Origin: an uncultured Bacteroidota bacterium
GTDB taxonomy: Bacteria; Bacteroidota; Bacteroidia; Flavobacteriales; Flavobacteriaceae
Direction: 5' to 3'
Assembly: GCA_903842575.1 (NCBI GenBank)
Contig: CAIMMM010000006.1
Coordinates: 75,456-139,455, forward strand
DNA length: 64,000 nucleotides
A program made the translations under genes and the position numbers. Shown piece after piece: positions 18,978 to 24,880 of the stretch. Under the pieces are notes generated by a model. That model worked only from the letters and a program-made list of their open reading frames with translations. It ran no database searches and had not been told where the DNA came from. How positions within the stretch are numbered: position 1 is the first letter of the stretch; each line of letters starts with the position of its first letter.

Positions 18978-19568
18978 ATGAAAAACTTATATAAAATAGT
19001 ATTCCTATTAAGCTTTGTTTCTTGCAAATCACAAATAATCCCGCTATATCCGCTATCAGATTCTTATAGCACAAGTGGTGCTTATTATAATGATGACCAA
19101 TTAGATTTAAATAAATTTGTAGGAACTTGGCGATTTGAGAATGGTAGCAATTCTTTTACAGTAGTTTTACAAAAGAAAACACACTCCTTTAATACAATCC
19201 GAAATTGTTATTTTGATATGATAATAGGAGAATACGAATATATTGATGGGGCTACAACCATTTCAACACTTTCTAATATTAATAATGTAAATATTGGAGA
19301 TTTCGATCATAATATTAAAAACGGGTATTTATTGTTTAAACAAAGATCGGATTTGGATTTTAATATAATAGAGAACATCGGTGTAAGAGTGAAATTTGTT
19401 AATCCATTAAGACCTAATATTAGTGCTTATGTGAGGATAACATATCACACGGATGCAAATAATAATCCGTTTATAAAATTTCGCATAAGTATTCCGATGC
19501 AAATTATTGATGGACCATTAGATTTCATGATAAGTGACGAAGAATTTGTGATGATGAAAGTAAATTAA
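18978..19568 (+). CDS. Small secreted/lipoprotein-like protein, DUF6705-like
   Basis: A 196-residue protein with an N-terminal signal (LLSFVSCKSQ, with a possible lipobox Cys at 16). The stretch GAYYNDDQLDLNKFVGTW is shared almost position by position with the second protein at 20563 (GTYYQDDEFDFNPYIGTW). Both end in KVN. I recognise it as resembling DUF6705 proteins of Flavobacteria; function is unknown. It begins three bases after the lipoprotein stop, so the two form a cassette. Confidence 0.7.
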   Translation: MKNLYKIVFLLSFVSCKSQIIPLYPLSDSYSTSGAYYNDDQLDLNKFVGTWRFENGSNSFTVVLQKKTHSFNTIRNCYFDMIIGEYEYIDGATTISTLSNINNVNIGDFDHNIKNGYLLFKQRSDLDFNIIENIGVRVKFVNPLRPNISAYVRITYHTDANNNPFIKFRISIPMQIIDGPLDFMISDEEFVMMKVN

Positions 19569-19663
19569 ACCACAAAAACCAGCATCAAATGAAGCTGGTT
19601 TTTTTATATCATATTTGTTTATAATTCTTAAATATGGTCTTGTATTCACATCAAAAAAAGTAC
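19557..19663 (+). repeat. 107-bp direct repeat, copy 1 (cassette end)
   Basis: From AAAGTAAATTAAACC to TCAAAAAAAGTAC this segment matches 21145-21250 with few mismatches and one indel. It contains the last codons of the cassette gene, a terminator hairpin and a truncated promoter-like TTG stretch. It stops exactly where the transposase element begins. Confidence 0.85.
19574..19605 (+). terminator. Terminator after the first cassette
   Basis: AAACCAGC pairs with GCTGGTTT around a ten-base loop and is followed by a run of T. It lies inside direct repeat copy 1. Confidence 0.75.
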
Positions 19664-19665
19664 CT

Positions 19666-19719
19666 AGCTCCGCAAAGAGTTCCTTTGAAAAGCTCCGCAA
19701 ATGTCTCCCGACTTTGCGG
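19666..19719 (+). repeat. Left terminal inverted repeat of the RAYT element
   Basis: Two blocks are present: a 17-base outer block and a 23-base inner block whose flanking arms CCGCAAA/TTTGCGG can form a hairpin. The outer sequence AGCTCCGCAAA is repeated at 19691-19701. A T-rich run follows. Confidence 0.8.
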
Positions 19720-19752
19720 AATTTTTTTTACTTTTATTTAAATTTAAACGCC

Positions 19753-20358
19753 ATGAAAGAAGGATATGTTATCAGGGATCAAAACTTGCCTCATTTTTTA
19801 ACGGTAACAATTGTTGATTGGGTTGATGTTTTTTCAAGAAAAATCTATCGCGATTGTGTCATTGAATGTTTTGAGTATTGTATCAAAAAAAAAGGAATGA
19901 TTTTGTTTAGTTATGTAATAATGAGTAATCATATTCACTTAATTATTCAATCGAAAGATGGGAAATTATCTGATTTGATTAGAGACTTCAAGAAATTTAC
20001 ATCTAAAACTATTTTAGACAAAATTCAAACAGAGCCAGAAAGCCGTCGAGAATGGATGTTAAAAAGGTTTAAATTAGCAACAGAAAGTCATTCAAGAAAT
20101 AAAAATTATCAGTTTTGGCAACTAGGTAATCATGCTGAAGAAATCTATTCCGAAAAATTCATGTGGTCCAAAATAGATTATATTCATTTTAATCCTATTC
20201 GTGCAGGAATTGTTTTTAATCCTCAAGATTATATCTACTCAAGTGCTTCAAATTATGTTGATAGTAAAGGAATTGTTGATGTTGAAATAGTTCAAATACC
20301 AATTGTAAATGTTTTAAATGCTAATTCATTTGTAAAATATAATCGTTATGAAAAGTAA
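19753..20358 (+). CDS. REP-associated tyrosine transposase (Y1_Tnp)
   Basis: A 201-residue single-strand transposase of the IS200/IS605-related RAYT branch. The HUH motif is H60-I-H62 in MSNHIHLII. The C-terminal signature DYIHFNPIRAGIV holds the probable nucleophile Y143, and KFTSKTI between them is also typical. I start at the ATG that gives MKEGYVIRDQ, because the open frame upstream runs through the left terminal repeat. RAYTs usually act on the palindromic repeats at their own borders; here these borders are intact, so the element may be functional. Confidence 0.88.
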   Translation: MKEGYVIRDQNLPHFLTVTIVDWVDVFSRKIYRDCVIECFEYCIKKKGMILFSYVIMSNHIHLIIQSKDGKLSDLIRDFKKFTSKTILDKIQTEPESRREWMLKRFKLATESHSRNKNYQFWQLGNHAEEIYSEKFMWSKIDYIHFNPIRAGIVFNPQDYIYSSASNYVDSKGIVDVEIVQIPIVNVLNANSFVKYNRYEK

Positions 20359-20422: not shown

Positions 20423-20545
20423 GGGAAACATAAGTTGTATGATAAAATTGGAGTTTATAAAGCTACTAATGCAATGCCAAATAAATGGAGTAGATTAACT
20501 CTTAATTCTAACAATAATATAATACTCGTACCTTGTCCAGAATAA
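20423..20545 (+). pseudogene. 3' remnant of a second JAMM-motif lipoprotein gene
   Basis: The frame after the element encodes about 40 residues (from KHKLYDKIGVYKAT to ILVPCPE). These resemble the end of the upstream lipoprotein: KLFRTKTNENKWS against VYKATNAMPNKWS, and LIPCNNQ against LVPCPE. The same kind of small secreted protein gene follows, as in the first cassette. The 5' part is missing and replaced by the transposase element. The open frame that begins inside the element at 20348 is fortuitous. Confidence 0.65.
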
Positions 20546-20562
20546 TTTTAAAAAGAAAAATA

Positions 20563-21156
20563 ATGAAAAAATATATAACAATAATATTAACGATAATTAC
20601 CGTTACCTGTTTCTCGCAAGTAACATCAATTGTCCCTCTTAATCATCCAATTGAAGTTAACATAACAAACGGAACATATTATCAAGATGATGAATTTGAT
20701 TTTAATCCATACATTGGCACATGGCAAGGAATTTGGGGCACAGGTATTAATGCGAAGACCTTTATATTAAAAGTAGAAAAAATTACTCAACATTTTTTTT
20801 CACAACCAGACAATGGTTATTATTATTCTGATATTTTAATTGGTAAATATACCGTTTTGGATGCAAGCGGATCAATTATTAATTCAACAATGAACGTAAC
20901 AAATCCAGATTTAGCAAAATTAATAAGTAAAAGGACTTTTGCTAATAGATGTTATTTTACATATAATGATACTGATTTATGCAACATTTATGGGACTGTT
21001 GGGTTGAAATTAGATATATCCAATCCAAACATTTTGAATTACATATATAGATATGAAGAGTTTTGGCTTTTGGAGGATTGTCCGTATTATGGGAGCCCAA
21101 ATGGTATTCCAATACCAATACCAACATTAGCAATTACTTTAACAAAAGTAAATTAA
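20563..21156 (+). CDS. Small secreted protein, paralog of the one at 18978
   Basis: A 197-residue protein with a Sec signal (MKKYITIILTIITVTCFSQ). It shares GTYYQDDEFDFNPYIGTW and the KVN terminus with the protein at 18978, but is otherwise well diverged. I start at the ATG of MKKY; an in-frame ATG-less extension upstream overlaps the remnant gene. DUF6705-like, function unknown. Four cysteines (two in the mature C-terminal half) could form disulfides. It is the second gene of the duplicated cassette. Confidence 0.7.
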   Translation: MKKYITIILTIITVTCFSQVTSIVPLNHPIEVNITNGTYYQDDEFDFNPYIGTWQGIWGTGINAKTFILKVEKITQHFFSQPDNGYYYSDILIGKYTVLDASGSIINSTMNVTNPDLAKLISKRTFANRCYFTYNDTDLCNIYGTVGLKLDISNPNILNYIYRYEEFWLLEDCPYYGSPNGIPIPIPTLAITLTKVN

Positions 21157-21279: not shown

Positions 21280-22296
21280 ATGAAAGAAAAAATGAGTTCA
21301 GAAAAAGAAGCCAAATTAAAAGCATTACAATTAACGTTAGACAAGCTAGACAAAGCCTACGGAAAAGGAACGGTTATGAAAATGGGCGATAAAGCCGTGG
21401 AAGAAGTGGAAGTAATTCCTTCGGGTTCTTTGGGATTGGATTTAGCTTTGGGCGTAAACGGCTATCCAAGAGGAAGAGTTATTGAAATATATGGACCGGA
21501 ATCTTCAGGAAAAACCACCTTAACTTTACACGCCATTGCCGAAGCTCAAAAAGCAGGAGGCATTGCCGCATTTATAGATGCTGAACACGCTTTCGACAGA
21601 ACGTATGCCGAAAAACTGGGCGTTGATATTGAAAATTTAATCATATCCCAACCTGATAATGGAGAACAAGCTTTAGAAATTGCCGAGAATTTAATTCGTT
21701 CCGGAGCGATTGATATTGTAGTAATCGACTCGGTTGCGGCCTTAACACCCAAAAGTGAAATTGAAGGCGAAATGGGCGATTCCAAAATGGGATTGCATGC
21801 CCGTTTGATGTCACAAGCTTTGAGAAAATTAACAGGGACCATTAGCAAAACGCATTGTACGGTTTTCTTTATTAACCAATTGAGAGAGAAAATTGGGGTC
21901 ATGTTTGGAAATCCAGAAACTACTACGGGAGGAAATGCGTTGAAGTTTTACGCATCAATTCGATTAGACATCCGTCGTTCCACACAAATAAAAGATGGCG
22001 ATAATGTACTTGGAAACCGAACCAAAGTAAAAGTGGTAAAAAATAAAGTGGCGCCACCATTTAAAGTTGCCGAATTTGATATCATGTATGGCGAAGGGAT
22101 TTCTAAAACAGGAGAAATTCTTGATTTAGCCGTAGAATTTGAAATCATCAAAAAAGCGGGTTCTTGGTTTAGTTATGGCGATACCAAACTGGGGCAAGGA
22201 AGAGATGCTGTGAAAGTTCTACTAAAAGACAATCCGGAACTGGCTGATGAATTAGAACAAAAAATTAAGAATTTGATTAAAGAAAATAATGCATAA
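21280..22296 (+). CDS. recA: Recombinase RecA
   Basis: A 338-residue, full-length RecA. It forms ATP-dependent filaments on single-stranded DNA and catalyses strand exchange. Walker A is GPESSGKTT (72-80), Walker B is in [12 protein letters not shown], and the L2 region [22 protein letters not shown] is complete. The first ATG gives [10 protein letters not shown]; the ATG at codon 5 is an equally plausible start. A hairpin terminator follows, so it is monocistronic. Confidence 0.98.
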
Positions 22297-22327: not shown

Positions 22328-22385
22328 GCTTTTAGACGCAACCATTTTCTGAAATTTGTATCTATAACTAACAACGTTTGAAATA

Positions 22386-22790
22386 ATGAAAAAAATAATT
22401 TTATTGCTATTAGTTGCCATTACTATTGGATCTTGTTCCTTAAGCGACACCCCTGATAGAGATTTTGTTCTATTACCTGTTGAATCAGTAATGATGCCCG
22501 ATGCTTATACTGCTGGGAATATATGCCGTATTTTAGTAAAATATAGAAGACCAACACAATGCCATATTTTTAATGGTTTTTATTATGACATCAATGAGAA
22601 TGTCAGAACCGTTGCCATTCAGGCGGTAAAATTAAATCAAAGCAATTGCCCTTCTGATACGGAAAGTATATATGAAGTCCCGTTGGATTTTAAACCAACA
22701 ACTGCCGGAGATTATACCTTTAAGTTTTGGACAGGCGTTGACGCTAATGGTGTTGATCAATATTTAGTTTATGATGTAGTCGTTCAATAA
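22386..22790 (+). CDS. Putative lipoprotein of unknown function
   Basis: A 134-residue protein with a clear lipoprotein signal (MKKIILLLLVAITIGSC, Cys17), so it is probably membrane-anchored in the periplasm or at the surface. The rest is likely beta-rich and ends with a GDYTFKFWTG...YLVYDVVVQ pattern. I do not recognise a named family. It lies 15 bases before the ECF sigma gene and probably shares its transcript. Confidence 0.7.
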   Translation: MKKIILLLLVAITIGSCSLSDTPDRDFVLLPVESVMMPDAYTAGNICRILVKYRRPTQCHIFNGFYYDINENVRTVAIQAVKLNQSNCPSDTESIYEVPLDFKPTTAGDYTFKFWTGVDANGVDQYLVYDVVVQ

Positions 22791-22805
22791 TTAATAGTAA
22801 TTGCA

Positions 22806-23363
22806 TTGAGTTTAAATCAGCTCATATTAGATAGTCAGAAAAATGACCGTAAAGCTCAAGAACAATTATACCGATTATATTCGCCAAAATTGTTTGGGAT
22901 TTGCTTGAAATACTCACGCAATTACGCTGAAGCTGAAGACAACTTACAAGATGGATTTATATTAATATTTGAAAAAATTAATCAGTTTAGTTTTAAAGGT
23001 TCTTTTGAAGGTTGGATTAAAAGATTAGTCATAAACCACATTCTTCAACAGTATCGATCGGAAACATTTTTAAACTTAGTTGATGAAAATATTGCGCAAG
23101 AGGTTGAAATTGAATTTGACGAGGATGACATAACCATTGAGTATTTAATGTCTTTAATTCAAGAGTTGCCAAATAGGTACCGATTGGTTTTCAATCTTTA
23201 TGTTTTAGATGGATATTCCCATCAGGAAATTGCAGAAATGCTTGAGATTTCAACTGGAACATCAAAATCAAATTTGGCAAGAGCCAAAATGAATTTAAAA
23301 GAAAAAATAGAGAATAGAACTGATAAAAACAGTAAAAATACTAATTTCCCAAAAGCAAAATGA
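22806..23363 (+). CDS. ECF-type RNA polymerase sigma factor
   Basis: A 185-residue extracytoplasmic-function sigma factor. Region 2 is at about 20-90, with LYRLYSPKLFGICLKYSRNYAEAEDNLQDGF. Region 4 is at about 125-175, with LPNRYRLVFNLYVLDGYSHQEIAEML and the SKSNLARAK recognition helix. Translation probably starts at a TTG codon. The stop overlaps the next start (ATGA), which couples it to a membrane protein with an anti-sigma N-terminus, the standard sigma/anti-sigma pairing. Confidence 0.9.
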   Translation: MSLNQLILDSQKNDRKAQEQLYRLYSPKLFGICLKYSRNYAEAEDNLQDGFILIFEKINQFSFKGSFEGWIKRLVINHILQQYRSETFLNLVDENIAQEVEIEFDEDDITIEYLMSLIQELPNRYRLVFNLYVLDGYSHQEIAEMLEISTGTSKSNLARAKMNLKEKIENRTDKNSKNTNFPKAK

Positions 23364-24880
23364 GCGAGAATAAAAACATAGAAAGACTGTTTCAGGAAAA
23401 ATTTAAAGATTTTGAGGTCATCCCACAAGAAATAGTTTGGGATAACATTGAAGCGGAATTAGACAAGAAGGAAAAACGAAGAGTTGTTCCGTTTTGGTGG
23501 AAACTTTCCGGAATTGCTGCCGCATTACTAATTGGTTTTTTGATTGCAAATGCATTCTTTTTTTCTAACCTAACAGAAAAAAATAATGTTGTTAATCAAG
23601 AAAATAAAAATCCAGTTAAAACAAATTCTACGGATAAAGTTGTTCCAAATTCCATAAAAGAAAACACAGCTATTGTGACTTCGGACATAAAATCAACTGA
23701 CGATAAATCCGAACAAAGTTCTTTAAAATCGGCAACAAATCATTCGGAAAACAATAAGGGAATTGCTTATTCAAATGAAAAAGACAAACCCAAAAATACT
23801 GCTACGACTAGCATAAACCAAAAAAAATCAACCAACAATGCTGATTTAAATCAATCCACAATTGCTAGTAATGACCGCATAGTTTCAGCAAATTTGGAGA
23901 AAAAAGGAACAGTAATTACTAAAAATAATCTTGTTGAAAATCCTATTGAAAAAGCGATAACAAATCAAGAAAATTTAGTTTCAAAAGACATTCCTAATCC
24001 CAAAACTACTTTCGAAAATAAATCAACAGAATCATTTCATTCCAATGAATCCATTCTGGCTGATAAAGACATTAAAAATATTGACACAACAAAAATTGCT
24101 GTTGTGACCAATGCGCTGGAAGAATTGCTAAAAGAAAAAGAAGTTAAAAAGAAAGCTGAACCTAAATTAAATAGGTGGCAAGTTGCTACAACTGTTGCGC
24201 CTATTTATTTTAGTTCAACTTCTGGTGGCGGTTCTCCTTTGGATTCTAGATTTGAGTCCAATGACAAGGAATTTCAACCTAGTTTTAGTTATGGCTTGGG
24301 CGTAAATTATTCCCTCAATAAAAAATGGAGCGTAAGAACTGGCGTAAATGCATTAGCATTAGAATACAAGACGAATAATGTAGTCTTTTTTCAAACCGTA
24401 AATGCGCGTCAAATGGAACATGTAAAAAGCAATCTACAAGGTTCGATGATTGAAGTTGATAACAAAAACAACTCTGGTGTACCTGAACTAAATCTTAATT
24501 CGGAAGTTATTGAAAAATTTAACGGAAGTATCAATCAAAAAATAGGATATCTTGAAGTTCCAATTGAATTTAGCTATAAATTAATGGATAAAAAATTTGG
24601 TATTGATATGATTACCGGATTCAGTTCTTTGTTTTTAAATGAAAATTCCGTTTCTGTTTTATCAAGTGGCGAAACTATAAATATTGGAAGGGCTAATAAT
24701 TTAAATACTTTTCACTTTAGTGGCAATCTAGGAATTGGTTTTAGATATCGTTTTTGGAAAGCTTTCAATGCCAATGTAAATCCAATGTTAAAATATCAAA
24801 TGAATACTTTTAACTCCGATTCTGGTAATTTCAAACCTTATGCTTTTGGGTTGTATTCTGGAATTAGCTATACCTTTTAA
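23360..24880 (+). CDS. Dual-membrane-spanning anti-sigma factor with outer-membrane barrel
   Basis: A 506-residue protein with an unusual layout. Residues 1-47 are a cytoplasmic anti-sigma-like helix region (LFQEKFKDFEVIPQEIVWDNI). Residues 48-69 are one transmembrane helix, and 70-268 are a Ser/Thr/Asn/Lys-rich linker long enough to cross the periplasm. Residues 271-506 look like an outer-membrane beta-barrel ending in GISYTF with the terminal Phe. It overlaps the ECF sigma gene by four bases. This matches the dual membrane-spanning anti-sigma (Dma) design described in Bacteroides. The topology is inferred from sequence. Confidence 0.8.
   Translation: MSENKNIERLFQEKFKDFEVIPQEIVWDNIEAELDKKEKRRVVPFWWKLSGIAAALLIGFLIANAFFFSNLTEKNNVVNQENKNPVKTNSTDKVVPNSIKENTAIVTSDIKSTDDKSEQSSLKSATNHSENNKGIAYSNEKDKPKNTATTSINQKKSTNNADLNQSTIASNDRIVSANLEKKGTVITKNNLVENPIEKAITNQENLVSKDIPNPKTTFENKSTESFHSNESILADKDIKNIDTTKIAVVTNALEELLKEKEVKKKAEPKLNRWQVATTVAPIYFSSTSGGGSPLDSRFESNDKEFQPSFSYGLGVNYSLNKKWSVRTGVNALALEYKTNNVVFFQTVNARQMEHVKSNLQGSMIEVDNKNNSGVPELNLNSEVIEKFNGSINQKIGYLEVPIEFSYKLMDKKFGIDMITGFSSLFLNENSVSVLSSGETINIGRANNLNTFHFSGNLGIGFRYRFWKAFNANVNPMLKYQMNTFNSDSGNFKPYAFGLYSGISYTF

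Follow-up and report, generated by a model that had tools for sequence, protein, structure and literature searches.

An ECF sigma gene that runs into the gene of a putative outer-membrane barrel protein raises the question of whether flavobacteria can link the state of the outer membrane directly to transcription, through an anti-sigma factor that spans both membranes, and which genes such a switch would control. We addressed this question in a window of Flavobacterium DNA, by which we mean the whole stretch of 64,000 nucleotides analysed, by computing gene order, protein architecture, a conserved promoter block and its genome-wide sites. We consider it likely that the locus encodes an autoregulated envelope-sensing switch of the dual membrane-spanning anti-sigma factor (Dma) type, with a small lipoprotein regulon.

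Gene order and conservation of the locus

A trio of genes occupies the plus strand at 22386-24880, immediately 3' of recA (21280..22296, plus strand), which gene-neighbourhood comparison identified as a conserved upstream neighbour and which lies outside the system. The ORF list gives a lipoprotein gene (LIP, 134 aa, 22386..22790, plus strand), an ECF sigma gene with a TTG start (185 aa, 22806..23363, plus strand) and a gene for a 506-aa protein (23360..24880, plus strand), a Dma-like anti-sigma factor predicted from AlphaFold2 and alignment to span both membranes. The neighbours that we take to be recA, plsC, trpS and dprA were named from their sequences. In Pfam, the sigma gene product matched Sigma70_r2 (1.9e-12) and Sigma70_r4_2 (3.5e-17). 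In a separate model search, the general sigma70-ECF model (3e-26) was the sole one above its own cut-off among 25 models listed. The start of the 506-aa gene overlaps the sigma stop by four bases (ATGA; 23360 against 23363), as the initial annotation had read it. The TTG start at 22806 is also found in several relatives, and may keep translation of the sigma gene low.

Using a profile-guided genome scan, we identified at least 381 relatives of the 506-aa protein, of which the best 80 were retained, from Flavobacterium, Winogradskyella, Maribacter, Flagellimonas, Mesonia and other genera. The sigma gene adjoins the barrel gene in all of these 80 best loci, with the four-base overlap in 42, and this adjacency exceeds chance. 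A lipoprotein gene lies 5' of sigma in 79 of the 80, the exception being L117, in which the gene was not found, and recA lies upstream in 79, the exception being L070, in which the contig ends before it. As the 80 loci are the closest matches, these counts describe this branch; within it, the lipoprotein that had been proposed as a third partner is encoded by a conserved third member of the locus. By BLAST, 29 of 60 related genomes matched the 506-aa protein, and the sigma gene adjoins in 32/32 loci taken from these genomes, its partner being barrel-less in four. One locus, L046, comes from another family; its lipoprotein gene has shifted to the 3' side of the barrel gene, still with the trio, and a neighbourhood check found no recA near this locus.

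A BLAST search of the source genome with the 506-aa protein gave a single match, the copy in the window. A second, weak match, to the Dma profile, on another contig (G000:C67:39614-40348) and in a frame of 251 residues, covers the N-terminal part only, and is perhaps an ordinary anti-sigma factor. A class-wide profile search matched 159 of 295 genomes, with many of the listed matches covering the N-terminal part only. We also noted that L063 and L090, labelled Rhizobium and Bifidobacterium, have flavobacterial gene order, and are probably mislabelled metagenome bins. Elsewhere in the window, two small secreted-type proteins, alike by eye (18978-19568 and 20533-21156), flank an ORF (19615-20358) that is presumably transposase-like.

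Architecture of the 506-residue protein and of the lipoprotein

We modelled the 506-aa protein in AlphaFold2 with 50 sequences, the window protein and 49 from the best loci. Residues 1-44 (23360..23491, plus strand) form a putatively cytoplasmic part with predicted helices at 4-18 and 24-35, of moderate pLDDT (block means 64-78), for which no Pfam match above cut-off was found. A hydrophobic membrane helix is predicted at 45-71 (23492..23572, plus strand), preceded in the aligned rows by Lys/Arg residues. Residues 72-272 (23573..24175, plus strand) form a tether that is mostly disordered, with pLDDT below 50 throughout 72-249 except at residue 200, and with a short helix (252-262) between the disordered stretch and the barrel. 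The C-terminal part (273-506; 24176..24877, plus strand) contains eight long strands within 273-505, with pLDDT of about 95, and ends in Phe in 50/50 aligned proteins. The model thus bears out the cytoplasmic part and single helix, the linker of about 200 residues (to close boundaries) and the Phe-terminated barrel at 271-506 that had been read from the sequence.

The barrel resembles OmpA, with a VIA Z of 15.5 to 9fzc_A (rmsd 2.8, 165 aligned) and a Foldseek TM of 0.71 by target length to 9fzd_A, and matches Pfam OMP_b-brl_2 near threshold (28.6 bits, cut-off 27). Searched against PDB sequences, the Dma profile gave matches over the helix and tether only (best E 0.0046). Conservation is uneven along the protein: across the 50 rows, mean identity to the window protein is highest in the cytoplasmic part (61%, 43-46 residues), followed by the barrel (46%) and the tether (21%, 168-321 residues). 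By a general chain formula, the tether would have a contour length of 60-116 nm and a relaxed end-to-end length of 10-15 nm, so that a crossing of the periplasm is possible.

We additionally identified three loci (L054:3083-5764, L060:4767-7733 and L061:2202-5498) in which a Dma-like N-terminus lies beside an ECF gene without a barrel. The anti-sigma proteins of these loci carry CarboxypepD_reg, TonB Plug, VWA and YfbK_C domains in place of the barrel, and their operons are without the promoter block described below.

For the lipoprotein, the lipobox Cys and cysteines 59 and 88 are invariant in 42 aligned sequences, and at least two acidic residues occur at +2 to +6 in 38 of them, commonly as C-S-x-D-D-D. 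In F. johnsoniae, SDDFE has been given as the signal for lipoprotein export (PMC5080379). From the acidic residues and the two further invariant cysteines, we suggest that the lipoprotein is probably surface-exposed, and the same two cysteines may form a disulfide. The lipoprotein model has a mean pLDDT of 91.3; the lipoprotein profile found no match among PDB sequences, and Foldseek found nothing in the PDB at E 0.001 or better, so we describe the predicted fold as a beta-sandwich from its strands alone.

The predicted promoter block and its genome-wide sites

A promoter search, which the initial annotation had proposed, revealed a conserved block amid unconserved flanks 5' of the operon: ACGCAACC, nTT, 13 bases and ATCT(A). 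In the window, this predicted ECF promoter reads ACGCAACC-ATT-N13-ATCTA (22336..22364, plus strand), 21 bases 5' of the lipoprotein ATG. Across 81 operons (the window and the 80 best loci), GCAACC is present 5' of every one, against 0.03 per 300 bases expected by composition; it lies at most 1 kb from sigma, except in L094, where it is found at -2806, right behind recA. ACGCAACC itself precedes 78 of the 81 operons, ACGCAACC-N15/16-ATC 77, the stricter ACGCAACCnTT-N12/13-ATCT 65, and the same pattern with the final A 51. When 80 sites were anchored on GCAACC, the preceding A and C were kept in 78 and 79, the TT in 74 and 75, and the second box retained its A, T and C in 74, 76 and 76 sites. 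From this conservation, we infer that the block is an ECF-type promoter used by the operon's own sigma factor. No earlier report of a GCAACC promoter was found in the literature searched, most of it outside subscription journals.

Elsewhere in the related genomes, CGCAACCnTT heads 12/12 divergent barrel-type operons, only seven of which have ATC at the expected spacing. Eleven of these operons have one or two extra genes between promoter and sigma, most with a lipoprotein or secretion-type start. The motif is missing from the 2.2 kb upstream of 4/4 barrel-less operons, two of which have a bare GCAACC. The sigma factors of these four are more distant (37-39% identical), and the contrast may therefore reflect the sigma subgroup and not the barrel.

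To predict a regulon, we searched 60 related genomes for ACGCAACCnTT-N12/13-ATCT, and found 57 sites, against three for the reversed pattern used as control. A lipoprotein ORF occurs within 250 bases of 30 of the 57 sites, compared with 47 of 929 ORFs and 33 of 4444 random positions. Five of the remaining sites precede SusC-like receptors, 12 precede another ORF and 10 have no ORF of at least 70 residues. About 20 of the 57 lack an explained target. Ten of the 30 lipoprotein sites are the operon itself and five are lipoproteins of divergent operons; an eleventh operon site (L188) was missed by the lipobox rule, and at two further operon sites, L176 and L160, the first gene is a different one. 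The 39 sites beyond operons comprise 15 at lipoproteins, five at SusC-like receptors, six in tandem pairs and 13 others.

In the source genome, a looser pattern gave four hits against two in the control. Besides that of the operon, one site (G000:C89; L151, L207) is convincing, lying 166 bases 5' of a SusC-like TonB-dependent receptor. Among the 10 of 30 SusC-like receptor loci with a readable start, the site lies at -164 to -167 in five, G000:C89 included, and is absent from the other five. Three of the latter (L245, L250 and L251) are MRSK-type receptors in genomes without a Dma BLAST match, and two (L244 and L253) are different receptors in genomes with one; L240 (G028) has the receptor site in a genome without a Dma match.

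Presence of the site follows presence of the protein within the genus, occurring in 20/26 genomes with a Dma match, weak and N-terminal-only matches included, versus 2/11 without (Fisher p 0.002). A profile recheck of the 11 BLAST-negative genomes found two weak matches, in G007 (a broken frame), which is one of the two BLAST-negative genomes with a site, and in G020 (the barrel part). In a class-wide sample, nine genomes of the same family gave 16 sites against none in the control, and 286 genomes outside it gave 14 against 14, which is chance level. In the search of 60 related genomes, three genomes of other families in the order have a site, and that of G038 precedes its operon.

Five loci from large Flavobacterium genomes (L269-L273) have no trio between recA and plsC, and carry two promoter copies 176-180 bases apart. 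The first copy precedes a non-coding stretch of about 110 bases with a terminator-like end, and the second precedes an ORF for a basic peptide of 34 residues, of which L269 has, by eye, a variant. No Rfam match was found for these small-RNA-like loci. The peptide matched in 4 of 60 relatives, three times at the recA-plsC locus and once, weakly, elsewhere.

Relation to known systems and a proposed mechanism

The Dma1/Das1 and Dma2/Das2 systems were described in Bacteroides thetaiotaomicron by Pardue et al., with an N-terminal anti-sigma domain, a membrane helix, a disordered tether and a barrel, in that order (PMC13088901). The domain order of the 506-aa protein is the same, in agreement with the Dma-type architecture that had been suggested for it, and the trio shares with both systems, as they are described there, the anti-sigma part, helix, tether, C-terminal barrel and adjacent ECF gene. 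The likeness is one of predicted architecture, compared by description. Both the trio and Dma2 have extra operon genes; the trio lies beside recA with the lipoprotein gene first, whereas the neighbours reported for Dma2 encode DUF4858/DUF4943 proteins and a reductase-like protein. In the same account, das2 ranks with the most strongly raised genes when dma2 is absent, autoregulation is suggested, and glycan sensing is proposed for Dma2 (PMC13088901).

A further parallel is found in Phocaeicola vulgatus, in which a sigma gene is followed, as here, by the gene of an anti-sigma protein that, by prediction, has an outer-membrane barrel and spans the periplasm (M0N98_03760/03761; PMC9308784). The pair is induced by the BcpT toxin, the sigma gene rising 33-fold, and three orthologues of NigD, a putative lipoprotein, rise on toxin; the trio is likewise linked to a lipoprotein, whereas the available part of the published description of the pair mentions none in its operon (PMC9308784). 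EcfO and its anti-sigma factor in Bacteroides fragilis, associated with oxidative stress, are cited there as a similar ECF pair (PMC9308784). In F. psychrophilum, seven ECF factors have been reported, several with overlapping expression conditions, and an ECF motif, SM6, has been mapped and tied to one ECF/anti-sigma pair (PMC9723704). Compared by description, the -10 box of SM6 is CGT and the trio promoter has ATCT(A) with GCAACC at -35, such that the motifs look distinct (PMC9723704). We found no report of a Dma in Flavobacterium in the literature searched, which lay mostly outside subscription journals. The design is thus already known from gut Bacteroides, and the trio adds the promoter block and the conserved lipoprotein gene.

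We weighed three other readings of the locus. The 506-aa protein could be an ordinary outer-membrane barrel whose long N-terminal export sequence is cleaved off, the sigma factor being regulated otherwise, but this is very improbable. The window protein has an A-N-A (63-65) that is a possible signal-peptidase site, and A-x-A falls at the helix start in some relatives (16 of 50 rows anywhere in 45-71). Near the helix end, however, A-x-A is found in the window protein alone, with the other 49 rows lacking it, and on this count the cleaved-signal-peptide reading was rejected. In addition, conservation is highest over the 44 residues N-terminal to the helix, which would be needless in an export sequence, and the ECF gene adjoins throughout the 80 best loci.

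Alternatively, the sigma/anti-sigma pair could be real and the promoter belong to another sigma factor, with the lipoprotein gene a bystander beside recA. The promoter is assigned by conservation, F. psychrophilum has several ECF factors with overlapping expression conditions (PMC9723704), and five genomes that lack the trio beside recA have kept the block at that place. We nevertheless regard this reading as unlikely: the -35 block heads all of the divergent barrel-type operons and none of the barrel-less ones, lies directly 5' of sigma in L117, where the lipoprotein gene is absent, and, as to the bystander, L046 keeps the lipoprotein gene together with sigma and the barrel gene, away from any detected recA. 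A third reading retains the architecture and changes the signal, with the barrel acting as a ligand-gated surface sensor of a glycan or other nutrient rather than of stress. The proposal of glycan sensing for Dma2 (PMC13088901) and the SusC-like receptors among the predicted targets are in its favour; against these, the locus is beside recA in nearly all of the best loci (79/80), and targets are lipoproteins at 30 of 57 sites and receptors at five, although some lipoproteins could serve uptake. We therefore consider a ligand sensor possible but doubtful.

A Dma-like mechanism remains the most likely for the trio. In such a circuit, the cytoplasmic part of 44 residues would retain the sigma factor at the inner membrane, on a chain that would pass this membrane once, form a flexible tether through the periplasm, and terminate in the outer membrane as an eight-stranded barrel. 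A barrel that is badly seated, or that is bound or disturbed from outside, would be the trigger, upon which the anti-sigma part would let the sigma factor go, by proteolysis or by conformational change. The freed sigma factor would transcribe from ACGCAACC...ATCT promoters, its own operon first, giving more lipoprotein, sigma and anti-sigma factor in a feedback, and after it the genes of a few lipoproteins and of the SusC-like receptor. The lipoprotein would serve either as an early output, or effector, of the switch or as a surface partner of the barrel. By analogy, the switch would be autoregulated, as suggested for das2, and would respond to envelope damage, like the P. vulgatus pair.

In favour of this mechanism, we counted the OmpA-type barrel, the tether length, the Lys/Arg cluster and the lack of a conserved A-x-A in the outer half of the helix, together with the gene order, the conserved promoter block, the excess of sites at lipoproteins, the co-occurrence within the genus and the Bacteroides and P. 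vulgatus precedents. Against it, we counted the moderate pLDDT of the N-terminal helices, the A-N-A of the window protein, the incomplete second box of the divergent operons, the more distant sigma factors of the barrel-less operons, the weak matches among the Dma-positive genomes, the sites without an explained target and the few hits in the source genome. Partial correlations of divergence in 44 operons, given recA and plsC, were positive for all six pairs, including sigma with the cytoplasmic part (0.45), sigma with the barrel (0.62) and lipoprotein with the barrel (0.59). Co-divergence thus does not set sigma and the cytoplasmic part apart from the other pairs, and, as the value for that pair is below that for sigma and the barrel, the expected interface is not singled out.

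We additionally put forward, as a conjecture that is improbable in its entirety, that the circuit gauges whether lipoproteins and barrels reach the cell surface. The operon lipoprotein, once flipped to the surface, would dock on the anti-sigma barrel, its arrival keeping the switch off. Failed export or barrel assembly would then free the sigma factor and raise surface lipoproteins and the SusC-like receptor and, in some genomes, a small RNA and the 34-residue peptide, from the same type of promoter.

As far as the literature found extends, proteins of the Dma design have so far been studied in gut Bacteroidales. With its promoter consensus, the widely kept locus beside recA offers a ready reporter, together with a predicted regulon and a lipoprotein partner that is itself conserved, through which sensing by this design becomes testable in harmless environmental flavobacteria.
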